Positions 1,563 through 62,850 of a stretch of 64,000 bases of DNA are shown piece by piece. Every line of letters begins with the position of its first letter. The first letter of the stretch is position 1. The notes beneath the pieces are model-generated. The model was not told where the DNA came from. It saw nothing but the letters and a program-made list of their open reading frames with translations, and searched no databases. Made by a program: the position numbers and the translations under genes. Source of the DNA: Hygrophila difformis (Eukaryota > Streptophyta > Magnoliopsida > Lamiales > Acanthaceae); contig JAOANR010000014.1 in the NCBI GenBank assembly GCA_030278955.1, forward strand, positions 23,810,068-23,874,067. Reading direction: 5' to 3'.

Positions 1563-3411
1563 CTAGAGCATGTATCTGAGCCAGTGGATGTAGCTGGTCA
1601 GTTCACAGCGCAGACACCAGCCATTGTGGTCTCTCAGGGGTTCATGCATCCTTGTCCAGTAGACTCGGGGTGGTTGATCCGCAAATAAGTAGGGGGTGTT
1701 TGGATCGTCCGACATCCATGAGAGAGTGTTGGCAGACGTGTAGCTCAGGACCGACCGATCGGTCACCATTCTCTCTATCATTGCGATCCCCTGATTAACC
1801 TGGCCTTCGTCCATTTTGCTCATAAGCATCAGTCCACGGGTGAAGATTGACGCTTTGTGATTGTCTTCGATGCCTGGCCGCAACAGTTCACATGCTCGCT
1901 CCTCATCCTCTTCTGCAAATGCCAGGAGTGCTGGAACAATTTGGAGGTTGAAGTTTCCAGCCTCCGTGCACGTGTTCAGAAATCTCTCTTTCTGCCACCG
2001 TATCCTCCCTTGCCACTGCCTCACCCTAGAAGTATCCAACTCGCATCGCTTGTACACGATGGCAAGATTTCCTGCGTCCCTGAATTTTTTGCATGTTTCT
2101 TGTGCAGTGAACACTTCCCTGATTTCATCCTCTCCAATTCGGGAGAGGATTTCACCTAGGAGCTCTAGTGGTAAGTCAAGCAGCTGAGTTCCCTCGGGTG
2201 CAGGATCCGGGATAGGAAGATTGCCCCTGAAAAGATAAGAAGTGATTAATCCAATTTTTATAATTTTCTCAGAAATTATTCAAGTTTAGGAACCAACATC
2301 CTCACATTTAGAGTTTTGCTCTAAATGTGAGATTATTAAGTTTCTGACTTGAACTGAGTATAAAGCATAAGTAAAATAGATTTTTGTGAAGAGATAGGGG
2401 TCATTGGGCCCCTATATATTTTTAATGGGCCATCGGGCCCAAAGTTCGATTTTCCAATTTTATTTAACAAGTCGAGACACTTGTTGAAAATGGAATGAGA
2501 TGGATGGGTGGGGTGAAATGCTCGAATTTTGGAGTGTGCGGTGGAGGCGTGGCGAAATGGATTTGCTGTTCCCGGATTGCTTTGACTGTGTTTGGTCAGT
2601 TAAAACATCCAGAAATCTTGCAAACACTATTTTTAATTTTAAAGAGTTGACTTGTTTTATTAAGAAAAGTGGGGTGTGAGTGGCCCCATTTTAGATTTTT
2701 GAAAAGGATAGCAGTTGGGTGACAAAAATACTGCTATTTACTCACACTATAGTTCCATTGGGAACAAAAAGAACACAAGTCAATTATTGCACCCATTAAC
2801 TATTTTTGTCTTTTTCCAAAAGGTCACTTTTATTAAAAAGTGGAAGTCTCCTATTGGGTGTTTGTACTATGTTTCCATAAACAAACAAACATTTATTCCT
2901 ACAAGGTTGTAACATGTGGAAACAAATATGCCCAAAAAGATCTTCCACTTGAATGCCTCAAACCAACACTGCAGAAGCATTTATTTCAAAATCAAAAGCA
3001 AAATTAAACAAGAAAAATCAAATACACAACCCTAAAACTCAAGAATAGAAAAACCAACAACATCATGGTGTTCAAAACAACACCCCAACGTTCATTAGTT
3101 TATTCTTCCAAGTTTTTAAACTTCCAAAATCTTACTCTTGACAGTTTTCTTTTAAAAAGATGAGTTCTAGACAGATTTCAAAAAAATCTCAAAACGATGT
3201 TCAAACCGAGAGCACTCAAAAACTTTGAAAACAGAAAACACAAGTGCACACAAACTACATTATATTCTTCTCAAAACCAAATAAAGGCAAAAGAACACAG
3301 AAGCTAGGAAGAGCCCTGAACAGGAGGAAAAGTGGGTTTCTACCCTGCCCTCCATGGTTCAGGTCTGGGTAGAGGTCCCAGATTTGGAAGGAGCCTGTAG
3401 AATCGGTCCAT
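1563..3411 (-). CDS. Accessory (cargo) gene of element A: F-box-like protein, two exons
   Basis: Proposed exon 1 is 3411-3344 (68 nt, ATG at 3411) and exon 2 is 2226-1563. The acceptor TTTTCAG ends at 2227; the donor is GTAGAA at 3343. The junction keeps frame (phase 2), giving about 243 residues. Early in exon 2 comes LLDLPLELLGEILSRIG, then an Ile/Val-rich helix and TCKKFRDA...VYKRCEL. This fits an F-box (LPxELLxEIL core) of the plant subgroup in which the box is followed by a RFLxxCxEAGN segment and Sel1-like helices, here about residues 85-160. F-box proteins bind SKP1 and select targets for SCF ubiquitin ligases; targets here are unknown. The gene occupies the place where elements B and E carry a much longer protein. 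Exon 2 is free of lesions although gag-pol is broken. The F-box call rests on motif reading; exon 1 is the weaker part because its donor is not ideal. Confidence 0.6.
2227..2331 (-). promoter_or_regulatory. Intron hairpin and splice acceptor ahead of F-box exon 2
   Basis: The 13-bp perfect inverted repeat CTCACATTTAGAG (2301-2313 with 2319-2331, 5-nt loop) is followed in sense direction by GAGGATGTTG and, 73 nt on, by the acceptor TTTTCAG. The same order and nearly the same spacing occur in elements B and E. Confidence 0.7.
2332..3343 (-). other. Intron of the accessory gene of element A
   Basis: No coding potential is visible. It is AT-rich and, by eye, shares blocks with the introns of B (23200-24548), E (45919-47263) and F (63041-64000), such as the tract around 2640-2760. 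This shows that the F-box exon sits in the same intron framework as the other cargo genes. Confidence 0.6.
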
Positions 3412-3564: not shown

Positions 3565-3575
3565 TGAAAAAGCCG

Positions 3576-3882
3576 GTCGCGGAACCCCAGACCGTGTCGT
3601 GGAACAAGGTTCCTCGACCAGGGCATAGCGACATTAGACATGTCGCGGAATCGGAGTACGGTCGCGGAGCCATGCCTCGCGACAGGGGTATCGCGACCAA
3701 TATCTGCAAGGGTAAAAGTCAACGGGAGACGGTGTCGCGGAGTGGGAGGCCGGTCGCGGAGCCATGGCCCGCGACAGGGGTTCCGCGACATCGTCAGAAA
3801 GAGTGATAAATGCGAGTGTGTCGCGGGACCATGCCTGGTCGCGGAGCATTGCTTCGCGACACAGTGGTTGCTTTGCGACATG
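3576..3882. repeat. GTCGCGG-type palindrome array, internal copy of element A
   Basis: About ten half-sites of the type GTCGCGG or its complement stand in inverted pairs separated by short spacers, directly upstream of the accessory TATA-like box. The same half-sites make up the arrays in element A's LTR (13413-13932 and 14644-14893). Several half-sites have decayed by C-to-T or G-to-A changes at CpG. Confidence 0.8.
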
Positions 3883-10464: not shown

Positions 10465-10482
10465 TCCCCGGCAACGGCGCCA
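10465..10482 (-). promoter_or_regulatory. Primer binding site for tRNA-Asp, element A
   Basis: TGGCGCCGTTGCCGGGGA on the minus strand, immediately after the LTR end ...TTTCA, is the exact complement of the 3' 18 nt (CCA included) of plant tRNA-Asp. Confidence 0.95.
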
Positions 10483-13412: not shown

Positions 13413-13932
13413 GAGCCGAGACCCGCGACTTGAGTACCTCGACAGGTTTTCAGAAATTTTGGCAGAATTTCACCTTGTGTCGCTAAGCAAAGGGTTGTGT
13501 CGCGGACCGTGGATCCGCGACAGGAGTTTAGTGACACAAGATTTTCTGAAAAATTTCTAAGTGTTTTGGCTCCCAGTCGCTAATCTGGAAATTGAGTCGC
13601 GGACCGTGGGTCCGCGACAGGGTGTTTAGCGACTGGGTTTTCAAAATATCGACAAGGCATAACTTCCTGTCTCGGAATAAAAAGTTGAGTCGCGGACCGT
13701 GGGTCCGCGACAGGGTGTTCCGCGACAGGAGCCATGCAGAGAAAAATAACGAGAGTTTGGTTCATGGTCGCTAAGCAGTGTTTGTGTCGCGGACCGTGGG
13801 TCCGCGACAGGAGTGCCTCGCCACCAAAGGGTTTTCAGAATATTAAGACAAGTGTCCCTAGACATCCATGTCGCGGAACAGCCTCCCTGTCGATAGGCGT
13901 GGCCTAGCGACCGGAGTCGGTTAGCGACATGG
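13413..13932. repeat. Palindrome array downstream of TATA, element A LTR
   Basis: Repeated units have a central palindrome of two 10-bp arms GTCGCGGACC and its complement around a GTG spacer (for example 13595-13617). Each is flanked at 10-20 bp by single half-sites of the GTCGCTAA type in inverted orientation. At least four units are present. Confidence 0.9.
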
Positions 13933-14572: not shown

Positions 14573-14643
14573 GAAGTGGAACCCTAGGCCCATGGGCTTG
14601 ATCTGAGGCCCACTGTGTCTCAAGACATCACACACATCACACT

Positions 14644-14893
14644 GTGTCGCGGAACTGGGAGTCTGTCGCGGAACATCACTGCATGTGGTAAGGCTTCTCG
14701 ACTGGGTCTTGGGTCTCTAGTGGTGCGTCTGTGTCGCTAATCAAGGGCTGTGTCGCGGAACCATGGTCCTCGACTCGGGCTTAGCGACACATCCTATCTG
14801 GACTGGTCTCTTCTTTATGCTTCTTGCTGTGTCGCTGATCCCTCCTGTGTCGCTAAGCCATGGACCGCGACACAGGAGCTTCCGCGACTGGGT
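14644..14893. repeat. Palindrome array upstream of TATA, element A LTR
   Basis: GTCGCGGAAC/GTCGCTAA half-sites in inverted pairs, of the same type as the downstream array, lie in the U3 part between the LTR start and the TATA box. Confidence 0.85.
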
Positions 14894-15257
14894 GCTCCTG
14901 GACTGGGCTGAATGGACCAGGTGGGCTGAATTTATTCTTTTTGTGGGCTTTTTCTATCTTTTCCCATCTTTTTGTATTCCTTTTTTTTTCTTTTCTTTTT
15001 CTCATGTTTTTGGATTTTTCTAACATAAATGTGTAACAAAATTACAAATTTATGCATTTTTCATACCAGCTTATTATTTTTACAATTATGCATAAATCAG
15101 TCCAATTCAACTGCTTTCTTATTTAATATAAGACCGGAATGCGATCAAATGCCCGTTTTAGACACGAAAATAGATTGAAAATAGTGGTCATTTCTGGCCA
15201 TTATCACTAGGGGTTAAGAATTCAGAATTTTTGTAATTTAATAAAGGGATGAGAACC

Positions 15258-15786
15258 CAGTCGTGAAACCATAATTTGTGTCATGAACCTAGGTTGCACG
15301 ACATGGATTTCGCGACTAGTGATTTTGAAATAAATTGCTAAGTCATGGAGCTCCAGTCGCTAGACTGGGATTGTGTCGCGAGACGTGGTCTCGTGACAGG
15401 GGTCTAGCGACTAGCATGTTTTCACAAAATATTTCCAAGTGTTTGGTTCCCATTCGCTAGACGTGGAAAGTGTGTCGCGAGACGTGGTCTCGCGACAGGA
15501 TGGTCTAGCGACTGGGTTTTCAAAATATTGCTAAGGCATAATTTCCCAGTCCTGAACCGTGGGTTCAGGACAGGAGTTACACGACTCGAGCCTTTCAGAG
15601 AAAACACAAGAGTTTGGTCCCCAGTCGCTAGGCTAGCATTGTGTCGCGAACCATGGGTTCGCGACAGGAGTGCCTCACGACTGAGGGTTTTAAACTAAAG
15701 GACAAGTGTCCTGAGACATCCGTATCGCGAGACTACCCTATAGTCGCGAGACGTGGTCAGTCTCGCGACTGGAGGCAGTTCGCGAC
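15258..15786. repeat. Palindrome array downstream of TATA, element B LTR
   Basis: Here the central arm is GTCGCGAGAC with a GTG spacer and its inverted copy, again flanked by single inverted half-sites. It differs from element A's arm at the last bases but has the same geometry. Several half-sites show CpG decay, for example GTCGTGAAAC and GTCATGAACC. Confidence 0.88.
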
Positions 15787-16383
15787 CAGGATGTGGTTCA
15801 GGACACATGTCAGGTACAGTAACATGCATTGTGCGTGATCTCACCCTGTTTCAGATCTAAAAGTGATTTTAAGCTAAAAACAACCAAACATATATTAAAT
15901 CTAACTAGAACATGCTTGAATAAAATAAGATAAACTAAGACAAACATTAAAACAAAACAAAAAGAATCCTAATCTAGGGTTTAATCACTCACTATGCATG
16001 AACCTAACCAAAAATAGTAAGCAGTAAGCATAATATGGAAAAATAAAGGTCAAATGACCACAAATAAAATGAAAGCAGTAAATCCATGGGTTTAGAACAC
16101 CCATTTCATGTTTTTGTGACACATTTTCAGATTTAACTTCCCATTTATTGAGTGGGTTTGTTATTATCCATTAAGTTGGACATTACAAACCCTAAAAACA
16201 AAGGTTTAGAAAGGAAAACATGGTAGAAAGTGGCCACCTAAAGCACTGAAATGGAAAACTAACAAGAATTTAAGCTAAACTACACTAATCTAAGAATAAA
16301 ATTTAAATAGTACAAAAAATTAAACTAACTACAGACTACCTAAGAGAGAGCTGTCTGACCCTGAGCACATAGGGATCACCATC

Positions 16384-16437: not shown

Positions 16438-16799
16438 TGTCGTGAGACTCACACACATCACAGCCATGTCTTGTGTCGCGGGACTCAACTGTATGTTGCA
16501 AGACTCCTCGCCTAGTCGTGAGGCTCTCTGGACTGAGTCTCTAGTCTGCCTTCTATGTCGCTAGACCACACCCAGTCGCGAGGCCATGTTTCGCGACTGG
16601 GGTGTCTAGCGACTAGTGTCTTGAGACTGGATTTGCCTTCAATTCTTCGTGTGTCGCGGAACATCTCCCAGTCGCGAGGCCATGTTTCGCGACTGGGTGT
16701 CTAGGGACTGGCTGCTTCAGTGCACTATCTTCTTGTGTCGCGAGACTGCACCTAGTCGTGAGGCCATGTTTCGCGACTGGGTACCAGTCTCGCGACTGG
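16438..16799. repeat. Palindrome array upstream of TATA, element B LTR
   Basis: Inverted pairs of GTCGCGAGGC/GTCGTGAGGC half-sites, with a repeated unit around CCATGTTTCGCGACTGG occurring three times. Confidence 0.85.
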
Positions 16800-17143
16800 C
16801 TCTACCTTACTGGGCCTGGCGGGCTAAAATGAACATTTTGTGGGCTTTTTCTTTCTTTTCCCATCTTTTTGTATTTTGTGGGCCTGGTTTATTCTTTTGC
16901 CCATCTTTTTCATTCCTTTTTCTTTTCTTTTCTTTTTCTCATGTTTTTGGATTTTTCTAGCACAAATGTGTAATAAAATTACATATTTATGCATTTTTCA
17001 TACCAGCTTATTATTTTTATAAATATGCATAAATCAGTCTAATTCCACTGCTTTCTTATTTAATATAAGACTGGAATGCGATCAAATGCCCGTTTTAGAC
17101 ACGGAAATGGATTGAAAATAATGGACATTTCTGGCCATTATCA

Positions 17144-21700: not shown

Positions 21701-23089
21701 TTCTGGAAGGGGCGTGGAGATAAAGTTGTCTATTACTGCATCTGGATCTTCTTCAGTTTCTCTCTCAGTGTCGGGCTCATCTTCATAGCCCAGCTGCTTT
21801 TCAGCACGTTTCAGATAGTCTTCAATGAAGCTCCGGAAGGTAATTCGCACAAGCTGTGCTTCCCAGTCTTCTTTTATCCTTTTGCAAAACTTACTACGGC
21901 ATTGGAATTGTAATGCAAGATCTTTTTCTTCTTCGTTTTGTCATTACAATATTGGAGAGCTTCTTTGTCCATTTCCATAATAAGTTTCAAGTAAGATTCC
22001 CGGTATATATCCAGCATAGCCCCTACCAGATCTTTTCTAATCCCTTCAAGATAGGTCATGTCTTGCGCAACATTAAAGTTGAGATAAGTTCCAGCCTCAG
22101 CTTCTGACATTAGCTGGAACTGTCTCTCCCCTTTCTTTATGGGCTTCCAACTGCCCTTGTGTATGTCTACAAGTAGATGTTCCCTTAATACAGCGATGTG
22201 CCGAGGAAGCTCATCGTCCTTGGTCGTTCCAAATTGCCCGTACTTCCTGTGTGTGAAAACAGATTCAAGTTCCTCTTCAGCAGGTAGTTCCACTCCTTTA
22301 TCCACAAAGGATTTAGTGATGCTCGGGTTTCCTTTTCCCCATACAAACATGAGGTTCTCCCATTCTTCCCTTGCGTCCTTGATCATTTTCCTCATGGTGT
22401 TCAACAATGAAGTATTGTGGCCCTGTTCAAAGTTTTCTGCACTTTTGAGGTGCTTGTGCAGGTTGAAATTTAATTCTCGGTGCCTGAGACGGGCCTGATC
22501 TGTAATCCACCTTTGTTCTACAGGTCCCTTCTTCTCAAAAAGATATGAGTTCCATTTGAAGGGAAATGCTTCGTGCATCATGATGACTCCGCTGTTTAAA
22601 ATTCTGCTCAGATCAATCTGTTTGTCAGTCAAGGCCATTCTGACTTGTGGATCAATGATCTGGTTTGGGATGATGACATCAAAGTCAGCCAGATTTGGAT
22701 CTTTCGTTCCTCTTTCCACATGCCGGTTCCAAATGGCTCTGTGTTCTCTGAACTTCAGCTGGATGCGTTCGTAGTGGACATCCGGAGTTGTTAGTACATC
22801 ATTTTTGGCATGGTCCATCATCATCCCCCAAAATTTCTTTAGAAAGTGATAATAATCCCTTTCTATTGAAGCAGCAACAATTGTTCTTTCTTCTGGGGGT
22901 ATGCTCACGTCCCATCCCTGCGGAAATTCCAATTTATCTTCTGTGGTGTGATCCAGCGGGACCTTATATTCTGACATGATCGCCGTCCGTATATTCTTGA
23001 TCTCAATTCTATCCACTGAAGCCTGCTGGGCTGCTTGCTCATATGTGCAATCAGGCAGCCCGATGCCTGATTTCACTACTAATTCGTTC
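18779..23089 (-). pseudogene. Accessory gene of element B, exon 2 (about 1,437 codons, broken)
   Basis: The exon starts after the acceptor TGCCTTTTTCAG (ends 23090). The N-terminal 400 residues (NELVVKSGIGLP...) match element E's protein by eye. A Lys/Glu/Gln-rich coiled-coil region follows (about 21600-21000), then an acidic stretch, then a domain with REFFCNIDANNKTTWVRG, INISPEWLNQFL, SGSVLMAFAKLWQGVKLNVGE and CYPNLIRRIC. That pattern fits the family Pfam calls 'putative plant transposon protein' (PF20167). A second coiled coil (ERKEEEFIKLMLEREER) ends the protein. Lesions: a frameshift near 21860, a TGA near 20298 and a TAA near 19716. No signal peptide or membrane segment is visible, so 'envelope' is not supported. 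Function is unknown. Confidence 0.8.
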
Positions 23090-25039: not shown

Positions 25040-26185
25040 AATTAATTTAATTTGGTCCAAGAGTTGCAGTCCAATCCAATTTGTTCCAGCCCAGCCCAAC
25101 CACAATTGATCCAATATTTTCAGTCCAATTCCCCAACCATTGTCCATAGCCCAAACCACCCTAGCCCAATTATCCAAGCCCAAGCCCACATTCACCAAAT
25201 CCTAACCCTAACCCTAACCCTAATGCTCCTACTGCCGCCACCTCCGGCGCCGCCACCGCCGCCGGCCACCATCTCCGGCGAGCCCCCTACTCTGGCGTCC
25301 CTTCTTCTCCGACCTCCTTTGCCGCCACCACCATTACCACCTCACCTCCGCAACCACATCACCACCACCACTATCCATTCGCCACCGCCTTGCCGCCCTC
25401 CTCGCGCCACCACCCAACCTCTGTGGCCGCCTCTCCGTTCACCGCCGCACCTCCGCCCTCACCTCCAAAATTCCATCTCCTCCGTCGTCACCAGCCCCCT
25501 TCTCCGGCGTCCCTTCGTCTCCGACCTCCACTGCCGCCACCACCATTACCACCTCACCTCCGCAACCACATCACCACCACCACTATCCATACGCCACCGC
25601 CTTGCCGCCCTCCTCGCGCCACCACCCAACCTCCGCAGCCGCCTCTCCGTTCACCGCCGCACCTCCGCCCTCACCTCCAAAATTCCATCTCCTCCGTCGT
25701 CACCAGCCCCTGCCGCTCCGTCCACTCGAGCCACCACCGCCAACCTCCTGCCCATCTCCGCCAACAACAGCCGACCACCACCATCCCCGTGCACCTCAAC
25801 TCCAACACATCCAAATCCGACCACCAAGCAGCAGTCGTGCTCCAACCATCATCCACTTCGCATCCCCGACGACTCCCGCGAGCTCCCCATCCCATCGCCA
25901 CCATCACCGCCGGCTACCTCCCATCCCAACAGCAGCCCTCTGCCATCGCCTCCGGTCACCTCCGCCTCCCTTAAGCGCCGCCGCACCACCGCCCTCACCT
26001 TTCCATTTCCGGCAGCCCACTAATTCAAATGGTGAAGAAGTTACCAAGAAAGAAAAGAAAACAAGAAGATAGAAATGGAGGAGGAGAAAGAAGAAGCAAG
26101 AAAGAATCTGTGAAGAAGGAAAGAATGGAACGAGAGAGGAGAGAGAAGAGAGAGGAAAGAGGAAAATAAAAGAGAGATAAAAAAT
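25040..26185 (+). other. GC-rich, proline-coding segment in U3 of the first LTR of element C
   Basis: Sharply GC-rich sequence in an AT-rich LTR, absent from the LTRs of A, B and E. It starts after TTAATTGCAG and ends in a purine-rich AGAAAGAAGAAG tract. An open frame at 25052-26023 would encode a Pro/Ser/Thr-rich, low-complexity protein. In the second LTR the corresponding frame (33712-34497) has a different middle because of the 212-bp unit, so coding is doubtful. Most likely it is a captured fragment of host genic DNA; its source is not recognised. Confidence 0.5.
25294..25717 (+). repeat. Tandem duplication of a 212-bp unit in the first LTR
   Basis: Two direct copies (25294-25505 and 25506-25717), each beginning GGCGTCCCTTC. 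The second LTR has one copy (from 33931). The length is not a multiple of three. Confidence 0.9.
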
Positions 26186-26206
26186 ATCCGGATCTCGGGA
26201 CTCCGG

Positions 26207-26427
26207 TCGCTAGACAAAATCCCATCCGGTCGCGAGACCACGCTTAGCGAAAGGAGTCTAGGGACAGAAAAATTGTTTAGGGACTGTGAGACAGAGACCC
26301 CAGTCGCTAACCGATGGCTAGCGACAGCTCCTCTAGCGACAGGGAAAATGATTAGGGACTGGGAGTATCAAGACGCAAAATCTATGTCGCGAAACAATGT
26401 TCAGCGACACGGGGATCGCGACAGCGA
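26207..26427. repeat. Palindrome array upstream of TATA, first LTR of element C
   Basis: Inverted GTCGCTAG/GTCGCGAGAC/GTCGCGAAAC half-sites, some reduced to GTCTAGGGAC. An isolated pair follows at about 26630-26660, closer to the TATA box. Confidence 0.8.
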
Positions 26428-26698
26428 CAGGAGAGAGAATGCAGCTCCCTCACGTGACTCCCATCCTCCCCTCAATTCAAATTTCCCACATGTTAAATCG
26501 AATGGAAGGTCCTGGGACCTCAAGTCCCGCAGACACAAGATTTTTGTCCTTTCTTCCCGGACCTCGAGCTCCCGCCCCCTCCTGCGCGTCATCTAAGAGC
26601 TAAAAAGTGTGTCCTGAACCAGAATTTGTTTCGCGACAAGCATAATTGTTTAGCTACTGTGTGGGCCTTGAATGGGCCTAGGGCTTAATTCTTCTCTC

Positions 26699-26706
26699 TA
26701 TAAATA
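26699..26706 (+). promoter_or_regulatory. TATA box of the first LTR of element C
   Basis: TATAAATA after GGGCCTAGGG (26675-26684), in the same arrangement as in elements A and B, about 2.1 kb from the LTR start because of the GC-rich segment. Confidence 0.75.
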
Positions 26707-27374
26707 TATTCTCCCACCCCCCTTGAACAGTAACCTGGCCACACTTGCAGTTTAATTTTTGTTCTTGGGGCACCACTGTGCTCTCAACTAGTTTTTAGTG
26801 TAGATAGTTTTATTTTTATGTAATGTAGATTGTAGTGTAGTTTTAGTTTAATTTCTGTAATAAATTAGTGTGGCTAGTGTTCACATTTTCCAGCTTATTT
26901 TATTTTTGTATTTTTGGGTTGAAAACACTTAATCAATGGGTGTGTTTAAACCATTTTTGGTTTTTGATGTTTTATGAGAAAATGTTTCACCAAAAATTTA
27001 TTATGGATCACTTCCATAATATTACTTGCTTTATTTTTGCATTTTTGGTCATTTGACCATTTTTATTATTTTTAGTTAGATTTAATGCTTTATTTAGATC
27101 TAGTAAATGTATAATCACTTGATGCTTATCCCTTGATAGGTTTAGAGTTTGTTTTTATTTTAATTTTAGTTTGTTAGGTAGTCTTTTATTTTTAGTGTTG
27201 CTGCTTCTCTAGTTTTTTTTTTTTTTTTATTCTGCTCTTGATATCTTTGGTTTTAGATAGTGTTTTTATTTACTTATTTTATTTTTATTTTAGTTCATTA
27301 GATCTAAAAAGGGATGATATTCTAGTGCTTATGCATATAGTCTAAAAATTGCATTCCTTATATTGTATTGCATC

Positions 27375-27434
27375 ACGTTGTAACCCCACGGGTTGCAACG
27401 TAACATTCCCGTTGTGATCCCACGGATCACAACG
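27375..27434. repeat. Twin palindromes in the first LTR of element C
   Basis: Two palindromes 8 bp apart: arms ACGTTGTAACCC with spacer CAC (27375-27401, one mismatch) and arms CGTTGTGATCC with spacer CAC (27410-27434, perfect). Length and spacer match the GTCGCGGACC palindromes of the arrays; the arms look like CpG-decayed versions. Confidence 0.8.
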
Positions 27435-27497
27435 CACTTCCATGCAATGCAATTTAAGGCGTTATGCTGCCAAATTTTGTAAAATTTTTAAAATCCC

Positions 27498-27860
27498 TCG
27501 GTCGCGAGGCAATCCTGTCACGAACCCACGGTTCGCGACACACTCCTTGATTAGCGACCGAGGACCCAAATACTTGCAATTTTATTCTGGAAGGGCTCTG
27601 TCGCGAAACCCCTGTCGCGGACCCACGGTCCGCGACACACCCCTTGTTCCGCGACCAGGAATTATGCCCTTGTTGAATTTTCAACCCTTTTTGTCGCTAG
27701 ACCCTTGTCGCGAGGTCACGCCTAGCGACACGGATTTTTGTCTAGCGACACAACAAACCCTAATTTTCAAATATCCAATATCTCTTATTTCCAACCTCTC
27801 TGTCATGATCCCCCTGTCGTGGACCCACGGTTCACGACACAAACTCTGTCTCATGACATG
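27498..27860. repeat. Palindrome array downstream of TATA, first LTR of element C
   Basis: Three or more units: GTCGCGAACC with spacer CAC, GTCGCGGACC with spacer CAC, and GTCGCGAGGT, each flanked by single inverted half-sites such as TTAGCGACC. Confidence 0.88.
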
Positions 27861-33242: not shown

Positions 33243-36200
33243 TGATAATGGTCAAAATTGACCATTATTTTCAATCTATTTCCGTATCTAATACGGACAT
33301 TTGATCGCATTCCGGTCTTATTTAAATAAGAAAGCAGTTGAATTTGACAGATATATGCAAGTTTGTATAAATAATAAGCTGGTATTGAAAAATACAAAAA
33401 TATTGCTTTTTTATTAAATTTGTGTTATAAAAATCCAAAAAAAATGATAAAAATATTAAAAATTCCACATTTGATAATTATGGTTTGGTAGTATCTGTTC
33501 GGTGGAACACGGATCCATTAAACGGAACACAAACAAAATATCAAGTGGAGCAAATATCCTTATTTATTATATTTTATATTTTATATTTTGATGTATATAT
33601 TTTTAATTTTTATGTTTATTTATTTCTATTTCTGTTTTCTGCTATAATTAAGAATTAATTGGTCCACTAATCTCTTTTAATTTTAATTAATTGCAGGTGA
33701 ATTAATTTAATTTGGTCCAAGAGTTGCAGTCCAATCCAATTTGTTCCAGCCCAGCCCAACCACAATTGATCCAATATTTTCAGTCCAATTCCCCAACCAT
33801 TGTCCATAGCCCAAACCACCCTAGCCCAATTATCCAAGCCCAAGCCCACATTAACCAAATCCTAACCCTAACCCTAATGCTCCTACTGCCGCCACCTCCG
33901 GCGCCGCCACCGCCGCCGGCCACCATCTCCGGCGTCCCTTCGTCTCCGACCTCCACTGCCGCCACCACCATTACCACCTCACCTCCGCAACCACATCACC
34001 ACCACCACTATCCATTCGCCACCGCCTTGCCGCCCTCCTCGCGCCACCACCCAACCTCCGCGGCCGCCTCTCCGTTCACCGCCGCACCTCCGCCCTCACC
34101 TCCAAAATTCCATCTCCTCCGTCGTCACCAGCCCCTGCCGCTCCGTCCACTCGAGCCACCACCGCCAACCTCCTGCCCATCTCCGCCAACAACAGCCGAC
34201 CACCACCATCCCCGTGCACCTCAACTCCAACACATACAAATCCGACCACCAAGCAGCAGCCGCGCTCCAACCATCATCCTCTTCGCATCCCCGACGACTC
34301 CTGCGAGCTCCCCATCCCATTGCCACCATCACCGCCGGCTACCTCCCATCCCAACAGCAGCCCTCTGTCATCGCCTCCGGTCACCTCCGCCTCCCTTAAG
34401 CGCCGCCGCACCACCGCCCTCACCTTTCCATTTCCGGCAGCCCACTAATTCAAATGGTGAAGAAGTTACCGAGAAAGAAAAGAAAACAAGAAGATAGAAA
34501 TGGAGGAGGAGAAAGAAGAAGCAAGAAAGAATCTGTGAAGAAGGAAAGAATGGAACGAGAGAGGAGAGAAGAGAGAGAGGAAAGAGGAAAATAAAAGAGA
34601 GATAAAAAATATCCGGATCTCGGGACTCCGGTCGCTAGACAAAATCCCATCCGGTCGCGAGACCACGCTTAGCGACAGGAGTCTAGGGACAGAAAAATTG
34701 TTTAGGGACTGTGAGACAAAGACCCCAGTCGCTAAGCGATGGCTAGCGACAGCTCCTCTAGCGACAGGGAAAATGGTTAGGGACTGGGAGTATCAAGATG
34801 CAAAATCTGTGTCGCGAAACAATGTTCCGCGACATGGGGATCGCGACAGCGACAGGAGAGAGAATGCAGCTCCCTCACGTGACTCCCATCCTCCCCTCAA
34901 TTCAAATTTCCCACATGTTAAATCGAATGGAAGGTCCTGGGACCTCAAGTCCCGCAGACACAAGATTTTTGTCCTTTCTTCCCGGACCTCGAGCTCCCGC
35001 CCCCTCCTGCGCGTCATCCAAGAGCTAAAAAGTGTGTCATGAGCCAGAATTTGTTTCGCGACAAGCATAATTGTTTAGCGACTGGGTGGGCCTTGAATGG
35101 GCCTAGGGCTTAATTCTTCTCTCTATAAATATATTCTCCCACCCCCCTTGAACAGTAACCTAGCCACACTTGCAGTTTAATTTTTGTTCTTGGGGCACCA
35201 CTGTGCTCTCAAGTAGTTTTTAGTATAGATAGTTTTATTTTTATGTAATGTAGATTGTAGTGTAGTTTTAGTTTAATTTCTGTAATAAATTAGTGTGGCT
35301 AGTGTTCACATTTTCCAGCTTATTTTATTTTTGTATTTTTGGGTTGAAAACACTTAATCAATGGGTGTGTTTAAACCATTTTTGGTTTTTGATGTTTTAT
35401 GAGAAAATGTTTCACCAAAAATTTATTATGGATCACTTCCATAATATTACTTGCTTTATTTTTGCATTTTTGGTCACTTGACCATTTTTATTATTTTTAG
35501 TTAGATTTAATGCTTTATTTAGATCTAGTAAATGTATAATCACTTGATGCTTATCCCTTGATAGGTTTAGAGTTTGTTTTTATTTTAATTTTAGTTTGTT
35601 AGGTAGTCTTTTATTTTTAGTGTTGCTGCTTCTCTAGTTTTTTTTATTTTTTTTATTCTGCTCTTGATATCTTTGGTTTTAGATAGTGTTTTTATTTACT
35701 TATTTTATTTTTATTTTAGTTCATTAGATCTAAAAAGGGATGATATTCTAGTGCTTATGCATATAGTCTAAAAATTGCATTCCTTATATTGTATTGCATC
35801 ACGTTGTAACCCCACGTGTTGCAACGTAACATTCCCGTTGTGATCCCACGGATCACAACGCACTTCCATGCAATGCAATTTAAGGCGTTATGCTGCCAAA
35901 TTTTGTAAAATTTTTAAAATCCCTCGGTCGCGAGGCAATCCTGTCGCGAACCCACGGTTCGCGACGCACTCCTTGATTAGCGACCGAGGACCCAAATACT
36001 TGCAATTTTATTCTGGAAGGGCTCTGTCGCGAAACCCCTGTCGCGGACCCACGGTCCGCGACACACCCCTTGTCACGCGACCAGGAATTATGCCCTTGTT
36101 TAATTTCCAACCCTTGTGTCGCTAGACCCTTGTCGCGAGGTCACGCCTAGCGACACGGATTTTTGTCTAGCGACACAACAAACACTAATTTTCAAATATC

Positions 36201-38987
36201 CAATATCTCTTATTTCCCACCTCTCTGTCATGATCCCCTGTCGTGGACCCACAGTTCACGACACAAACTCTGTCTCATGACATGCATGGCACCTTCTTGC
36301 CAAATTTTCATTCTCCATCTCTCCCCATTAATTAATTGAACCTTTATATTAATATTTTGAGGTTGAAATCCAATGATCTCAACCCATGATTAATTTGATA
36401 TAAAGAACTTTGTTCAATTGTCCATTAAAAGATTCTTCTACAAAAATTAAACTCTAATGATCTAAGTGTATAATCCGGACTGTAATTAATTAATTATGGA
36501 ATGAGAGATTATTTAGACCATAAAGAGTGATTATGGAATTTTCCATACCCTTGCATGGGAAACCAACGTCTCTCATACAAGATGACCCAAAAATATTTTC
36601 TTTTATTTATTTTGTATGTTCTGTGTTGTGTGAAACAGCTGGTAAGAGATATAACAGACTAATGTTGGCGGGTATTCCCACACGGATAAACTAGCTCGTG
36701 GTCTGTATATTAATTACTAGATGTTATTTTGCATGGTCCGGATAGTGGTCGGTGGAAGCCTTGGCGGTTCGTCCATCTGGGATTATAATAGCTGCTCAGC
36801 TAACTCCTATCCGGATACAGTTTTATTTTCTTTATCTTAATTTCAAACCTGAATCTAGAGTTGTAGTAATGTTCGATGACATATGCCAATGTGTCTAATA
36901 ATTATTGCAGTAATAGAACATGTGGGTTTTTATCCAGTCACAGAAAGTGGAGTCTAAGATGACGGCGGCAACTGTCATTTAAGGCATTCCACTGTCTAAA
37001 AATCATCCCACCTGGAATAGTCAGGACCTGGATAGCAGATGTTTGCAGTCCGGATTATCCTGATTATTTTTGTCATCTTTTTAGCCAAAATAAATCCTTC
37101 TCATCTCCGGCTATTTCATCTCTGTGTATCAACTTCTGTCTAAACCCGCCTTATATTTTGGGTTATTTGATTTTACACTTCCTTATAAATTTATGCATAA
37201 TAATATTATGTAACTATTGGGGTCAAGTTATTTTGGGATCCTTCCCTTGGACATAGAAGTCTAGATATTAATCAGATGCCTCACAAAAATTTTCCAACAA
37301 AAATTCATTTATAAAATCCGGATCTGAGTAAGGGATAAATTCCACAGTTATGACTAATTTATATCCGACTGGGGGTTGATTTTGGGAAATTAGAAGCAGA
37401 GTCAGCGATTAGGTCTCATCTAGACTGAAAGGATCTGTGTTTTAATTGAGAGTCTAGTACCTGTTTAGGGAATGATTTTCAAATCAATTATTTTCCAAAA
37501 TTGCTGTATGTTGGAAATCTTATATTAAATATCGCACTGACTCAGAGTCCGCTTGGATTCAGATGAGGTGTAATAGATAATACTAGAAGAACAACATGTG
37601 GGCCTTGGTTATTTTCTAAGGTAGGGTTGAGTTCCTTTCAACTGCTATCCTCTTCTGCCAAAGCCTATATTTGAGTCCTGAGTGAGTGCATCCGGAATGA
37701 ACTAATTTATTAGTTTATTTCATTTGTTTGTATCTCATAACCACCCGACGGGAAGTGAACACTGCGAGCGGTTCACCGAGAATAGGGAATTCTTGATCCA
37801 CATCCGGTCATTCTGACTGGGGGCTCTCTTTTACTACCAGGGTCAGACTTTCAAAAACCTCCGAGTGATAGGATTTTAAATGCTTTCTTTATCGCTTTCT
37901 TTTAACTGCTTTCTTTAGAGGTCACTCGGTTGTATTGAGAATTGCGTAACTGCTACTAGGACTGATAGTTAAGGGATAGTTCAGGCTTGATTAGAATCTT
38001 TGGGTGTGACATGGGGGATGATAGGAGTACTTGGCATATCAACTAATGATATGTTAGGTGTTGCTTATCCACCACAGATAAATAACATACCTCGGCAGGG
38101 GCAGTTAGTAATTTGTGGTATCTTAGATTTTGAGTTCTAGAGAGCATGTAAATTCTCGCTGTAAGTACCTGTCTGTTAAAGGGAACATAGTGGAGAAAGC
38201 ATGAGAGTTAGCTTACTGACGAATTATCCCAAGCAAAGATCTGTGTAATTAAAATGGAAGTTTAATTGTGTTTCATCTGAATCTTGTCCAATTTTTATTC
38301 TTTTCCTCCTGTCCCTTCTGTGACACTTTAAATCTGCTTTCCTAGATTAATGATAGATAGCTTAGTATTATTTCATCGCTTTCTTAGAATAATTTTAATT
38401 GCTTTCTTAGATTAAATTTATCTGCTTTTTAGAATAGTTTTAATTTGCTTTCTAGAATAATTTTAATTGCTTTCGTAACTTAGTTTAAATTCTGTCAAGT
38501 AGTTGATAGTCAAAACACAAACTTGAATCGAGTAACCGAGTGGAAAATCTTATAAAACGACGTGGGCCCTGCTTCCATCGCACATCCTCCAATGAACGAT
38601 CCGGTACTTACTATAAATACTGCAATTTTTGACTCCGTGCGCTTTCGGAGGCACAGTTTCTCAACACGAGTAAATAAAAATGTGACAACCTATAAATATA
38701 TCCCTAATCCCAACTCCGCCTTCATAAATCGATTTTCATTAAATAAAAGTAAAATCAAAACCGGGATTAATATTTTTCAGAAAATACTCATATGGTGGGA
38801 AATTGTTAAAAGTTTCATGGCCGGGGATTTTCATCGCGCCATTTGAAATCAAAGTTTCCCACATGAGTAATAAAAAGTGAAATATATCCTTAAACCCTTT
38901 CCCACGAATCATAACTCTTTTCATTTAATAAATTCAATTTGGGATATTTTAGAAAAACTCGTGTTGACGAAATTGTCAAAAGTTTCA
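33243..38987 (+). repeat. 3' LTR of element C (5,745 bp)
   Basis: Nearly identical to the first LTR, with one copy of the 212-bp unit. TATAAATA at 35124-35131; palindrome arrays at about 34630-34855 and 35925-36265; GC-rich segment at about 33700-34610; twin palindromes near 35800-35865. It ends AAGTTTCA and is followed by the target duplication. Confidence 0.95.
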
Positions 38988-39163: not shown

Positions 39164-39172
39164 TGAACGGCC

Positions 39173-39560
39173 CAGTCGCAGAACCCTAGCCCATATCGCG
39201 GAACTGGGTTCCTCGACTGGGGTCTAGCGACATTAGATGAGTCGCTAGACTGGCCACTAGTCGCGAGACAAGGTTCCGCGACTAGGGGCAGTTTCAGGAC
39301 TGGGTTTAGAAGGTAGTGGGGCCAGAGAGAAAGGCAGTCGTGAGACTCAAATCCAGTCGCGAGACCAGGTCTCGCGACTGGGGTTTTCACGACTGGGTAA
39401 AGGAATGAGAGAAAGTTTTGGGGACCCAGTCGCTAAGCTCAATCCTAGTCCCGAGACAAGGTTCCGCGACTAGGAGTGGTTTCGCGACTGGGTAAAAAGA
39501 TGAGAGAGGGTAAGGAGGCCAGTCGCTAGACTTGGTCCCAGTCGTGAGGCGTGGCCTCGC
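39173..39560. repeat. GTCGCGAGAC-type palindrome array, internal copy of element B
   Basis: Inverted half-sites GTCGCTAGAC, GTCGCGAGAC and GTCGTGAGGC in nested pairs. The half-sites are those of element B's LTR arrays. Confidence 0.82.
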
Positions 39561-39564
39561 GATT

Positions 39565-39742
39565 GGTTGAAACTTTTGACAGATTTCCCACACGAGTATT
39601 TTCGAAATAAAAAAAATCCCGGTCTTGACTTGATTTTATTTAATGAAAATCAATTTATGATCACGGAGTTGGGATTAGGGATATATGTATAGGTTGTCAC
39701 GTTTTTATTACTCGTGTTAAGAAACTGTGGTCCGAAAGCGCA
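39565..39742 (-). repeat. Remnant of an element B LTR, U5 side
   Basis: Matches 10786-10965 of element A's LTR in the same orientation (GAAACTTTT...CCGAAAGCGCA). It is cut at 39743 by element D. Confidence 0.8.
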
Positions 39743-41516: not shown

Positions 41517-44500
41517 TTAGTTCTTCTTCTCCGTGGGCTGTGTGGAGGATCCGGTGGCATCTCTTTGAGGTGATGGGAACTTGCTGAGGATGGTTTTCAT
41601 CATTTCGGCCTGATTGTCGAACATCCTGGCTTGACTGGCGAACACTGCTTCGAACATTTTTCTATTCTTTTCCTCATTCTCAATCCTTTCTTGATGCTGC
41701 CTGGCTGCTTCCTTTCTGAACTCCTCTTCTCTCTCAAACATTCTCAGCCTAAACTCTTCCTCTTTCTGCATTTGTTTCTCGTGAGTCGAAACAATGGCAT
41801 CGGCCAAAGATCTGACACTCTGCATCATTGACTCTCCCATTCTGCTCACTGCTTCTAGAGTTTGAGACTCAGCTGGGTATTGAGACACAGTTGGGCTTCT
41901 GCGCGAGGGTCGGGCTGGATGTCTTCGTGATAAACTAGGAGTGGAAACATCAGTTCCAGGATGAGTGGGAGTGGGAGCAGGTTCTGTTGGTGTGACTGCA
42001 GCTTCTTCTGTTGAAGGTACCGCTTCAATACGGTCCATCTTCTTGTGCCCTTTGCATCCGGCTGTTGGTGCCCTAGGAGTGTATCTGGATTGAGCTTCTG
42101 ATTCTTCCGGCATGATGTATGTAACTGATTTAGTTATCCTTGTTTTTGGGACTGGGATCGGCCGGCTCATATCGATAAGATCGCTCTCTGCAAAAACTGT
42201 TAGATCTACTCCTTGGGCTTCACAAATTCTCCTGATGAGGTTGGGATAGCATAAAGCAGCATCTCTAGTGCCTGTGACCTTTGTTGTCATGACATGGAAA
42301 ATCTGCTCTCCCACATTGATCTTCAGTCCATGCCAAATTTTGGCAAAACCCTTCAACATTCGACCAGATGTTTCATGTGCATGAGGATTTGGCCTAATCT
42401 TCGACATGTAGAAGTCATAGAAGGGTTGAAACTCCAGCTTCAGGTGCTTTGCTTTGAAGGGGATTTCACCAGTGTAGCTTTCAGCAGTAAGGGACCTAGT
42501 GATGTTGTCGTGATATTGCCTGTCAGCTGCCCTGCTTGCTCCCTTCTCGAAATGCTCAGATGTCGGAATTTCTGACCTCCAGTTGGGTGTGCCAAGGAAG
42601 TTGTTCAAGTATTCCCCCGAGATGTTTATGTCAACTCCTCGTACCCAACTTGTCTTTCGTGTGGCATTAATATTGCAGTAAAATTCCCGAACCAATTCTG
42701 CTATCCCGGGTTCAGCGTGATGCTTAAGGAACTCAGTCCATCCGTGGTTTTCTTTCAATGTAAGTAGCATTGGATGATCAATCAATTCTGGACTGAACCC
42801 TTTATCAGGGACAAATACTCCACTTAGTGCCATGTATAGTCCCGCATTCTGCTCATTCCCGTTGAACCTCTTCATTATGTCAGCATCATCCGTGATGCGG
42901 AATTTTCTGAACTTCTTAGTAGATACACCCAGTCTGGCCCTTGAAGTTGAGTTGGCCCAATAACCAGCCGATCGCACTGATCCGGTCGATTCTTGGGTTC
43001 CTTCAGTTCCTGCTTGTTCTCCATCAGAGTCAGAACTTTCCCGTGGCTGTTCCCTCTGTTCAGTTTGCTCGTGTTGTTTTGATTCAACCTCTGTGTTCAA
43101 TTGTGGCTCTTCCTCAGTTTGTCCCAACTCAATTTCTTCACCTCGTTGAGTTGCTCCCTGCTCGTGCAAATTACAAGGATCTTCGGGGAATACGGAGTCT
43201 AGGAAATCCTCGTGAAGATATGGATCATCTACATGTTGATATTCCTTTTGTGATGCCTCGACTTCCCTCCTGATGGTCGAGTCTCCCAATTGTTCTTCCG
43301 TGTCATCTCCTTGCTCTATGGGAATATTGAGATCGTAATGGAGAATCTGCTGAAATGTCTTGTCTTTAAAGATATCTTCTATGGTATCCATTTCTGCTTG
43401 CTCACCTCCACTGCTACCTTCAGTTCTTACTGTTTCTTGCATTGTGGGTTGCGGTTGAGTAGTGGCTGCCGCTAGAGTTTGTGCAGTTATGTCATTCAAA
43501 TCACTCGCAAGCTCGGCGAACTTCTTCTTTGATTCTTCAAATCTGACATTGCCCTCGTGCACCATTTCCTCTATCTCCTCTGTGGGCCGCATTGCCTCCA
43601 TTGTTTTCTCAACATCCGCATTTGCGTCATTTCTGCGAGCAGTTGATCTTTTTACTTGTTCCTCCTTCTTCCTTGCCCATTCTGCTGGCTCAGCTTTCAC
43701 CTTGACAGGAATAATGTCGGTTCCGCTGATTATCTGACAATCATCATCCCCGACCTCAACCTGTGTTTCAGTGTTAGCTTTTTTCTTCTTCTCCAGCTCA
43801 GCCTGCAATTTTTCAGCAGCTTTTCTATTCTCCTCTTCCTCTCGGGTTTTTCTAATGTTTTCCTCCATTTCTGCCTTCCTGGCGTCTTCTTCTGCTTTCT
43901 TGGCCTCCTCTTCAGCTGCCTTGGCCATTTGTTCTTTCCGAAGTCGATTTTTCTCGACCCTTGCAGCTTCCATTTTCTGCTTCCACTCCTCCGTCTCTTT
44001 TGCCATTTCGATCTCAGCCTCCTCCTTCTCCCTTCTTGCTCTTTCAGCTTATCGGGCATCGTATTCGGCTTTCCTCTGTTCCTCAATCATATCCATTTCA
44101 GCTTCCTCTTGAGCTATCCTTGCTGCTTCTGCATCGGCTTCTTCCTGAGCCTTCTTTGCCAATTCTGCATCGGCTTGCACTTGGGGCTTACGCTGTTGTT
44201 CTTTCTTGGATAACTCAATGGCTTGATCCTTGCCTCTGTCTTTTTGTTTGGGAGGCTCATCATAGAATTTGGGCACAGGGGGAATGATCCTTGGCTGATT
44301 CGGAGGTTCTTGGATTCTGATCTGAGGTTCAGCAGATTTTTCAGACTTTTCTTTTATCTGCCAACCTTATCAGTTTTCTCTTTTTCTTGGGTGGCTCTGG
44401 TTCGGATTCAGTCTGGGAGGGTTCAGATTCGGCAGGCTCAGATTGCTCGGAAGTCGGATCAACATAATCATCAATGATCTGTTCTTCATCCTCAACATTC

Positions 44501-45814
44501 AATCCCAATTCCGGTCCTTTGATCTTCAGAAATTTTTGGATGAATTTAGGCTCGGACATGGCTGTGAGTTGCGCAGTCCATTTTAGTGTGAAATATCTGC
44601 CTAGGACACCTTGGAATCCCGTGTTATACTGTAACCGAGGTCGGTGTTCTTGACAGTGCCTCAGACCTTCTGCGTCCATTTCACGTAGCAGGTCGAGGAA
44701 CCTCTTTTTCATCTCCGTGTACAGGGTGTCCACGATGTCTGCCTCTTTCTCCTTTAGATGTCCTAGGTCTCGGACTGGTGGAATGTTGAGATACTCCAAA
44801 CACTTGTTTTTGCCCATGACTGAGATCTGTTTCCTCTTGCGTCCCATTCTGTCCCATGATCTGTTTTGAATCATCGCGATGCATTCAGCTCTCATCAGCT
44901 CGAAATTGGGTATCCCCTTCATTGTGGTCTCTCGGGGCTCAACTGCCGGAATCCTTTGTGGTAAGAAGACTGGCAGAATCTCCACTTTTCCCGGAGGTAT
45001 TACTATTCCCGGTTTTAGTACAGACTCCCTGATGTCCTTTTCCCATTTTCCCCATGCAGTCATGTATTCCCCCCACAGTTTCCTGGCTGCTTTTGTTTTC
45101 TCAATGATCGAATCCAGCATTGGAGTGTGGTGGGCTTGTCCGTAGTTCAGTACCGCCTGGAGAGAATCCCTGAAGTTGAATGTCATTTCAGTATGACGCT
45201 CTTTTGCACGCAATGTCAGCCATAGCTGCTCCTCCGGTCCGCAAATGGTCCCATTGTCGAATAGTTCCTTCTTGTATGTAAATGGAAAGGTCTCCGGCAT
45301 GGAGAGCACACCAGTTGACGCAACTAAGTACGGTGGAGGCGTCTTGGGGGCATAGTGCATTTTTACTTCCCTTGTAATGGGTGGTTGGATGAGGACTGGA
45401 TCAAAGGCTGCAGCTCTCCTATCTCCGAAGTGGATTTCAAGCATTCTGTTCCAATAAGCCTTCTGTCGTTTCATCCTCCAAACCATCCGCTCATAGTGAA
45501 CTCTCGGCTCATTAAACTGTTGATCGTACCTTGCCTCATCGAACTCCTGCTTCCAGAAATTACATACATGTTGGCAAAAGTCTCTTTCGAGGCCCGTTGC
45601 TCTATCATTTCTTTCTTCCTCTGGAATCGTATTCCACCAATGGTCCTTCATTTCGAACCTCCATTCAATCTGGTGGTCCATAGGCAGGTTATGCTCATTT
45701 CTTATGGCCACCCTATTTTCCTCTGCTTCTTTCTTCAGCCTCTCAATTTCCAAGAAGGCACGATCTGGAGTTGTCTTCGGAAGACCCATCAGGGAATCTA
45801 TAATGAATTGATCC
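41517..45814 (-). pseudogene. Accessory gene of element E, exon 2 (about 1,430 codons, nearly intact)
   Basis: Starts after the acceptor CTCTCTAG (ends 45815); codons before the first ATG (45789) are open and align with element B. Regions in order: about 490 residues of unknown fold (MGLPKTTPDRAFLEIERL...), Pro-rich stretch, a long Glu/Lys/Ala coiled coil (44276-43730), acidic region, then a PF20167-like domain at about residues 985-1210 (VREFYCNINATRKTSWVRG, INISGEYLNNFLGTP, FYMSKIRPNPHAHETSG, KINVGEQIFHV, CYPNLIRRICEAQGVDL), Ser/Pro-rich linker and a C-terminal coiled coil. Only two lesions are seen: a frameshift near 44340 and a TAA near 44047. No signal peptide or membrane helix. The role is unknown; a nucleic-acid-binding or regulatory protein is as likely as a structural one. 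Confidence 0.82.
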
Positions 45815-47263: not shown

Positions 47264-47301
47264 CCCCGACTCCCACTAGGGTTTGACGACGACGAAGCCA
47301 T
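47264..47301 (-). pseudogene. Accessory gene of element E, exon 1 (38 nt)
   Basis: ATG at 47301, encoding a Met-Ala-Ser-rich start, ends at the donor GTAAGT (47263-47258). Length 38 nt, phase 2, exactly as in element F. The frame continues into exon 2. Classed as pseudogene because exon 2 has lesions. Confidence 0.7.
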
Positions 47302-47443: not shown

Positions 47444-47457
47444 GGGTTCGGAAGGGG

Positions 47458-48000
47458 AGTTCGAATTATTGCATCAATTCGAATTAATTCGAATTGATGC
47501 ATTCTGTGAGGGATGCGAGTTATTCAGGCCAGTTCGAATTAATTCGAATTGGCTTGCAAGACAAAATATACGCACAAGTTCGAATTGTGAATCAATTCGA
47601 ATTAATTCGAATTGACTCATAATTCGAACTTGGTGGAGGGGAGTGACTTCGCATGGAAATGCTTTTGTGAGCTAATTCGAATTATTGGGGTGGTTCGAAT
47701 TAATTCGAACTTCCCCACAATTCGAATTGCTTACTTTCATAAGAGAATGCCTTTTGTATGCCAATTCGAATTAGTCAGGCAATTCGAATTAATTCGAATT
47801 GCCTTATAATTCGAATTGCAATACTTGGCCTACTAAAATATCCGAAAATTCTGCCTTGGGTGCCAATTCGAATATGCATGGCAATTCGAATTAATTCGAA
47901 TTGCCTGCATAATTCGAATTAACTAATCCGAATGTGAAAATTTCCAAGGCAAAATGTCTTATGTGGTATGTTCCAAGCAATTCGAATTAATTCGAACTTT
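47458..48000. repeat. AATTCGAATT palindrome array, internal copy of element E
   Basis: About seven units of a 20-bp palindrome made of two AATTCGAATT copies, each with single TTCGAATT half-sites 10-25 bp away on both sides. The spacer sequences differ between units. The same motif builds the LTR arrays at 57354-57825 and 58758-59152. Confidence 0.93.
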
Positions 48001-58695: not shown

Positions 58696-58757
58696 ACAAA
58701 CTTCGAAACCTTAGCCCCACCAATGTTGTGCTCATGTTCCACAGCTTCAATGAGTCA

Positions 58758-62101: not shown

Positions 62102-62260
62102 TAATTTATGCAAGCAATTTATAATAGAGTAATACTTCTGTTTAAATGTGTGCTTTCGGTATGCTTTTTCTTAAGAAAATCCATAATTTCAGAAAATTTG
62201 AAATTTTGAAAATTCTCAAAAATTTTCTAAGTGTTGATTGTGATCTTCTTTGTATCTCAA
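62102..62260 (+). other. Spacer, element F
   Basis: AT-rich; no gene or motif seen. Confidence 0.6.
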
Positions 62261-62833: not shown

Positions 62834-62850
62834 AGCCCACTTTCCTAGCC

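Follow-up and report, generated by a model that had tools for sequence, protein, structure and literature searches.

Palindrome arrays of nested Ty3/gypsy elements in Hygrophila difformis carry an element-specific motif and may be sites for a lineage-specific trans-acting factor

We analysed a 64,000-nucleotide stretch of the Hygrophila difformis genome (the window), in which related Ty3/gypsy LTR elements carry arrays of CG-containing palindromes in their LTRs and downstream of pol. The half-site motif of these arrays tracks the element in which an array lies, and the spacer sequence between the half-sites tracks the position of the array within the element. We propose, at a probability of about one half, that the arrays are multi-copy sites for a lineage-specific trans-acting DNA-binding factor, most likely encoded by the elements themselves, which would co-regulate both promoters, that of the LTR and a putative internal one. 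All results rest on single element copies in this one window.

Elements and palindrome arrays in the window

Comparing the window with itself reveals related Ty3/gypsy LTR elements on both strands, nested within one another, including:

LTR from about 15206 to 10483, PBS 10482-10465, pol to 4729, minus strand: element A
24579-38988, plus strand: element C, with two LTRs and a short internal region, inside element B
LTR from 59483 to about 54743, minus strand: element E

Element A is inserted into an LTR of B (B on the minus strand) and E into the pol of F (F on the plus strand), while C is flanked within B by ATGCC on either side. The LTRs of C (about 5.7-6 kb, about 98% identical) are separated by 2.7 kb, and C is probably non-autonomous; a 212-bp tandem duplication is confined to its 5' LTR. 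A run of 500 Ns at 40342-40841 is an assembly gap, located where the 3' end of E is expected. Pfam searches of the open frames of A, E and F identified the domains RVT_1, RT_RNaseH, Integrase_H2C2 and rve, with integrase and RNase H in all three elements, reverse transcriptase in A and E, and gag in E. A protease match in E falls below the Pfam cut-off, the gag of A was identified through its likeness to that of E, and no chromodomain or RVT_3 was found in these frames at 0.001. The primer-binding site TGGCGCCGTTGCCGGGGA, presumably complementary to tRNA-Asp, follows the LTR in A (10465..10482, minus strand), in C (30562) and in E (54725). It occurs twice at the 5' end of the E internal region, at 54592 and 54725, 133 bp apart. 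Athila elements have a PBS complementary to tRNA-Asp immediately after the LTR and the order RT-RNaseH-integrase, with no chromodomain and without the second RNase H of the Tat/Retand type. From the PBS, the gene order and the absent chromodomain and RVT_3, we call the present elements Athila-type Ty3/gypsy.

In the LTRs of A, B, C (both copies) and E, the TATA box has an array on either side, called U3 on the upstream side and U5, as a working label, on the downstream side. A, B, E and F carry an internal array after pol. The insertion of C separates the B internal array from the remainder of B. The arrays are as follows:

13413..13932, minus strand: U5 array of A, 17 exact GTCGC half-sites in 5 units, arm GTCGCGGACC, spacer CAC in sense
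14640..14900, minus strand: U3 array of A, 9 exact half-sites, upstream of the TATA box TATAAATA at about 14570
3570..3880, minus strand: internal post-pol array of A, 14 exact half-sites; TATTTATA and a pyrimidine-rich stretch come next in sense
15290..15800, minus strand: U5 array of B, arm GTCGCGAGAC/GTCGCGAACC, 13 exact half-sites
16440..16800, minus strand: U3 array of B, 11 exact half-sites, upstream of TATAAATA
39170..39570, minus strand: internal array of B, 11 exact half-sites
26150..26720, plus strand: U3 array of the C 5' LTR, 10 exact half-sites
27370..27850, plus strand: U5 array of the C 5' LTR, 11 exact half-sites
34615..35085, plus strand: U3 array of the C 3' LTR
35800..36300, plus strand: U5 array of the C 3' LTR
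57355..57830, minus strand: U5 array of E, arm AATTCGAATT
58755..59150, minus strand: U3 array of E, upstream of TATAAAAG
47455..48000, minus strand: internal array of E, made of AATTCGAATT units; TTTTTATACC and a pyrimidine-rich stretch come next in sense
62260..62840, plus strand: internal array of F, AATTCGGTCT units, orthologous to the E internal array

The arrays are real. With the N run excluded, the window contains 45 CG-containing palindromes, compared with 0-2 in 20 shuffles. At 13413-13932 there are 17 GTCGC/GCGAC words (dinucleotide-shuffle mean 1.5, maximum 6) and 5 palindromes with 10-bp arms (shuffle maximum 1). The arms named in an earlier, sequence-only reading of this DNA are found in the window. 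Its claim of one fixed geometry holds for the outer spacing of the units, which is shared, but not for the inner spacing, which falls into two classes (18 bp in the GTCGC class and about 10 bp in the AATTCG class).

In A, B and C, the unit consists of two GTCGC-headed half-sites face to face with one further half-site outside each. Among 19 neighbouring facing pairs (exact GTCGC, 10-25 bp apart; from A, B and the 5' LTR of C, the 3' LTR being excluded), 18 are spaced at 18 bp and one at 22 bp, and the resulting palindrome is 23 bp long. In E and F the 10-bp inner arms abut to form a 20-bp palindrome, with outer offsets similar to those of A, B and C. Read in sense, and counted over the 25 of 29 A/B/C units that have both outer half-sites, the outer half-site stands 14-17 bp away upstream in 21 units and 18-20 bp away downstream in 22. 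The upstream spacing is the shorter in 21 units, equal in one and the longer in three, namely one unit each of A and B (19 vs 18) and one of C (23 vs 14). In E and F it is shorter in 10 and equal in two of the 12 units, from a total of 22, that have both outer half-sites. These unit counts leave out the duplicate 3' LTR copy of C, units with outer half-sites failing the mismatch limit, the pair spaced at 22 bp, the GTCCTGAACC palindrome of B and the GTTGTGATCC palindromes of C. All arrays share this outer grammar, and in all of them the core of the half-site contains a CpG.

The CpG observed/expected ratio is 0.84-1.56 in the arrays. It is 0.08-0.10 in the sequence that separates the U3 from the U5 array in A and in E, 0.50-0.68 in the other LTR parts tested and about 0.6 in gag-pol. 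The richness of the arrays is partly built in, as each half-site contains one CpG. Protection of CpGs after insertion was considered and rejected: CpG transitions between the two LTRs of C amount to 4.0% in arrays and 4.3% outside, so the richness mirrors that of active copies and not post-insertion protection. The U5 array of C opens with variant-motif palindromes, for example GTTGTGATCC (27377-27433 and 35801-35859), and this variant looks as if both CpGs of both arms had changed symmetrically to TpG/CpA.

Half-site motif follows the element, spacer sequence follows the position

We masked the half-sites and compared the intervening sequence between arrays. Six of 18 same-position pairs from different elements are clearly homologous (z 3.7-22): A-B (z 21.9), A-C (13.4) and B-C (9.6) in U5, A-B (7.7) in U3, and E-F (10.9) and A-B (3.7) among the internal arrays. 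Two more are borderline (B-E U5, z 3.4; B-F internal, z 3.2) and the remaining 10 are at or near chance. The U3 spacers of C could not be aligned with those of A or B (z 0.7 and -0.6). None of 10 same-element spacer pairs is homologous (z -0.4 to 2.2; unrelated pairs -2.0 to 2.6), and a separate run on the E array pairs gave z 1.9-2.4. Despite these non-homologous spacers, the half-site sequence is shared within elements, and this sharing is therefore not due to recent copying of arrays. The sequence-only reading had the LTR and internal arms of A as the same, which is nearly so: the internal arm is mostly GTCGCGGAGC, close to the LTR arm but not identical. In-place replacement of GTCGC by AATTCG finds no clear support in the spacers, 8 of 10 same-position pairs of A/B/C versus E/F giving z -0.5 to 1.6 and two being borderline.

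The internal arrays of E and F carry different motifs at orthologous positions. Over the aligned 2.7 kb of pol and 3' flank the two elements are 88.6% identical, and their internal arrays align unit for unit, with 21 of 24 F half-sites falling on an E half-site. Of the 20 full-length ones (the twenty-first is aligned only in part), all show A in E against T in F at position 8, 19 show T against C at position 9 and 16 show A against G at position 7; at each of the other seven positions E and F agree in 15-20 of 20. Because the motif itself aids the aligner, we realigned the arrays with the motifs masked. This placed 16 of 24 F half-sites on E half-sites (60 spacer shuffles: mean 8.8, maximum 15) at an alignment score of 114.8, compared with a shuffle maximum of 61.6. 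We regard this switch as the strongest sign of a putative trans reader of the half-sites. The accessory protein of F lies outside the window, so the switch is not attributable to a change in that protein.

A and B differ less sharply. At half-site positions 7-8 the arms of A prefer GA and those of B prefer AG, a difference that is not absolute. The GA:AG counts go from 5:0 in A to 1:6 in B in U3 (Fisher 0.015), from 10:1 to 0:9 in U5 (0.0001) and from 7:1 to 3:6 in the internal arrays (0.05), for a contrast that was picked after the half-sites had been seen. The coarser contrast at position 7 gives 0.065, 0.0003 and 0.11 respectively, significant in U5 only. In a clustering test of the A and B arrays, the partition by element ranks first among 10 distinct partitions, for which the p floor is 0.1. 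The arms of C are a mixture without a code of their own. Change of motif between homologous arrays combined with sharing within elements is what a co-evolving trans recogniser predicts, as in the VANDAL/VANC system, and this part of the earlier inference of a co-evolving factor is supported.

Neutral concerted evolution could also make half-sites change together, if switching of the template from one palindrome to another, in reverse transcription or in replication, homogenised the half-sites and perfected the palindromes. The joint change of arms fits such a process, as does the B palindrome at 15549-15571, which departs from GTCGC at positions 4 and 5 symmetrically on both arms; the spacers of the E/F arrays also evolve faster than their flanks (147/280 identical, compared with 180/221 and 129/191). 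However, the outer half-sites, which are isolated 10-bp sequences, show the same differences between E and F as the inner ones while their flanks remain alignable, so that conversion tracts would need to match the half-site every time, and the outer spacing is preserved. We consider this explanation improbable.

Symmetry of the units beyond the motif

The arms of a unit need not agree beyond the core. In one U3 unit of A, from an arm comparison in which units were located via the 18-bp spacing, they match at just 1 of 5 positions beyond GTCGC, and the half-site pair is kept nonetheless. Across units, the U5 inner arms of A, B and C covary within units (7 mismatches vs 21.4 expected, 12 units, p 0.003) and those of the internal arrays do so weakly (15 vs 19.6, 9 units, p 0.036). 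The U5 outer half-sites covary as well (20 vs 28.1 mismatches, p 0.013), and U5 complementarity extends outside them (35/44 vs 22.5, 11 units, p 0.0013). The 22 units of E and F covary in the 3-6 bp that flank the palindrome (p 0.0001-0.001), with 43/66 within-unit matches against 31.1 for the three nearest bases (p 0.0001).

Such symmetry would be expected had the units been selected as hairpins, either in a long LTR leader RNA or in extruded DNA, with a role in packaging, translation or processing by host small-RNA pathways. Such a hairpin would have two stems, an outer one and an inner one of about 10 bp, separated by an asymmetric internal loop, and two example units do fold as two-stem hairpins from either strand. 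Against this, G-U mismatches in sense are not in excess over A-C (19 vs 35), no covariation was detected in the U3 arrays (a small set of 8 units, p 0.67) or outside the outer half-sites of U3 A/B/C, internal A/B/C or E/F units (small sets, p 0.66, 0.66 and 0.18), and no Rfam family reached the gathering score. Hairpin selection also leaves unexplained why non-homologous arrays of one element have one sequence in common. We consider it unlikely as the main explanation, and we read the extra symmetry, which mutation that perfects palindromes would also be expected to produce, as an added layer, structural or mutational in nature, that is strongest in U5. The earlier reading of the unit as a site for a dimer or tetramer is plausible, although the unit-by-unit symmetry beyond the motif exceeds what a plain dimer would need.

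Promoters, accessory genes and comparable systems

Two of the three array positions, U3 and internal, stand just upstream of TATA-like boxes. Judged by eye, TATAAATA or TATAAAAG follows the U3 array at about 40-80 bp in A, B, C and E, and TATTTATA, TTTTTATA or TTTATATT, with a pyrimidine-rich tract, follows the internal array at about 10-20 bp in A, B, E and F. The U5 arrays have no obvious promoter. The box after the internal array, a better TATA-like read on the opposite strand in the case of A, B and E, is a putative internal promoter for an accessory gene that we predict to be spliced and to lie in sense between pol and the 3' LTR. The parts of this gene in the window are:

47264..47301, minus strand: predicted exon 1 of E, ATG at 47301, GTAAGT donor from 47263, phase 2
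63003..63040, plus strand: predicted exon 1 of F, GTAAGT donor from 63041, phase 2
3344..3411, minus strand: candidate exon 1 of A, candidate ATG, donor GTAGAA, phase 2
44341..45814, minus strand: exon 2 of E (ORF1), with an acidic tail and then a PKKKRKL-type NLS (by eye)
41517..44048, minus strand: ORF2 of E, 843 aa, PF20167, with charged, likely coiled-coil ends (by eye)
21874..23089, minus strand: exon 2 of B (ORF1), 29% identical to E ORF1
1563..2226, minus strand: exon 2 of A, with TPR_27 (above cut-off) and an F-box (just below) in the place of ORF1

In E and F the ATG and GTAAGT donor come after a short leader downstream of the internal array, and the acceptors in E, B and A continue in phase 2 into the ORF, matching the phase-2 donors of E, F and A. 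PF20167 matches E ORF2 with an E-value of 8e-24, and two pieces in B match it below cut-off. No Pfam family reached the cut-off for E ORF1, an NCBIfam search returned no match, PDB sequence searches with ORF1 and ORF2 gave chance-level matches only, and none of the 7989 scored candidates passed E 0.001 in a protein database search with E ORF2. No recognised DNA-binding domain was found in the accessory proteins, and structure models of ORF1 and the PF20167 region were too poor to use (mean pLDDT 41 and 38). The accessory proteins diverge more (B vs E, about 28-44% aa identity overall, 29% for ORF1 and 35-44% for ORF2) than pol does (85-92% for A or F vs E, the pol of B lying outside the window); gag has diverged as well (55% and 79% in two A-E stretches).

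A sequence from the junction of the internal region and 3' LTR, AATGTGAGGATGTTG, occurs 11 times in the window with at most 1 mismatch (0.27 expected with at most 2), at 2294, 4234, 17142, 23160, 30702, 31225, 31752, 33230, 45881, 48319 and 61896. An imperfect hairpin (ATTTAGAG..CTCTAAAT) lies next to most copies, among them those just before the accessory acceptor and those after pol. The copies are perhaps extra PPT-like sequences, such as are mentioned for Athila4 and Calypso (PMC2829016).

Under the proposal of a lineage-specific factor, one protein would control both the genomic RNA, through the LTR promoter, and the accessory gene, through the internal promoter. The likeliest candidate is the product of ORF1/ORF2, in E a protein combining an acidic tail with an NLS and probable coiled coils, and it may act on its own family as an autoregulated activator or an anti-silencing protein; a shift in its specificity would carry along all sites of that element. 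Two elements do not fit the simplest version of this proposal. The main difficulty is A, where each of the three positions has its GTCGC array but a match to ORF1/ORF2 was not found; the factor for A would have to be supplied in trans or be of another kind. C has mixed half-sites and no accessory ORF was seen in it. The exon that A has instead shares the splice phase of ORF1 in B and E, and we call it a probable accessory-exon swap. An F-box protein in a retrotransposon is reminiscent of those viral silencing suppressors that use F-boxes. Of the earlier inference, which allowed an element-encoded or a host factor, binding by an element-encoded protein is the part that meets difficulty, A using the motif with an F-box exon.

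Retention of the motif in A and C, where no ORF1/ORF2 was found, would suit sites that serve host transcription factors, different for each family and recruited for germline or stress activity. The authors of the Sirevirus study likewise propose that cis-boxes in plant LTRs are often bound by host factors (PMC2829016). A fixed set of host factors does not, however, predict a change at about 20 sites at once between E and F, or the parallel shift between A and B at three array positions, and we regard a host-factor origin as quite unlikely.

The nearest published design is that of the Sireviruses (Ty1/copia; Bousios et al. 2010), which carry repeated CG-core palindromes. Each element has a single consensus, and the copies stand before the TATA box in the LTR and, where an env-like gene is present, also between pol and that gene (PMC2829016). 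Those palindromes form CpG islands, their motif varies between elements, and their role was left open in 2010 (PMC2829016). The present arrays resemble them in having a palindromic, CpG-rich motif in the LTR and upstream of a post-pol gene. They differ in belonging to Ty3/gypsy elements with the integrase after RNase H, in a four-half-site unit with sense-directed spacing, in an additional LTR array that follows the TATA box, and in a palindrome of 23 or 20 bp. Their cores (GTCGC.., AATTCGAATT and AATTCGGTCT) also lack the CGG-CCG found in 12 of the 13 Sirevirus motifs tabulated in PMC2829016. A further difference is the site-by-site comparison, made here, of orthologous arrays with different motifs. 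A 2016 paper is said to deal with palindromes and small RNAs in maize Sireviruses.

VANDAL transposons have element-specific short motifs, repeated in non-coding regions and differing between related families, which are read by rapidly diverging accessory anti-silencing proteins (VANC) with demonstrated binding and demethylation (PMC5735166, PMC10398659). The single copies A, B, E and F are alike in that the motif differs between related elements and is shared across the non-coding regions of one element; a fast-diverging accessory protein is a further likeness. Unlike the VANDALs, which are DNA transposons, they are LTR retrotransposons, with a putative binder; the word "palindrome" is absent from the main text of PMC5735166. 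Accessory genes between pol and the 3' LTR are known from Grande (gene23, a nuclear protein with its own promoter) and Retand (TRP28, a proposed DNA binder), the latter with tandem arrays in the accessory-gene region (PMC7264820, PMC11963269). Those described there are antisense and contain PF04195, whereas the gene here is in sense, predicted to be spliced and associated with PF20167, and the arrays here also lie within the LTR. In sunflower Athila clusters, members of the same clade, a local drop in methylation in the LTRs is reported and an encoded protein is asked about as its cause (PMC12844716), with no motif arrays in the description given. In the titles and abstract openings of the part of the literature covered, we found no description of palindrome arrays of this kind in Athila.

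More tentatively, Athila-type elements may run their own regulatory circuit, for anti-silencing or transactivation, through a spliced nuclear accessory protein that would act at CpG-centred dyads of the LTR promoter and of its own promoter. Its code would shift as a whole between lineages, convergent with VANC/VANDAL and with the Sirevirus palindromes, for which it would also offer an explanation. Whether regulation by element-encoded, sequence-specific proteins extends to elements other than VANDALs could be tested cheaply here, with the accessory proteins of E and B and the sites of E, F and B. LTR retrotransposons make up a large share of many plant genomes. If the circuit exists, they would escape or steer host silencing through private recognition codes, and such a code would be readable straight from the DNA.
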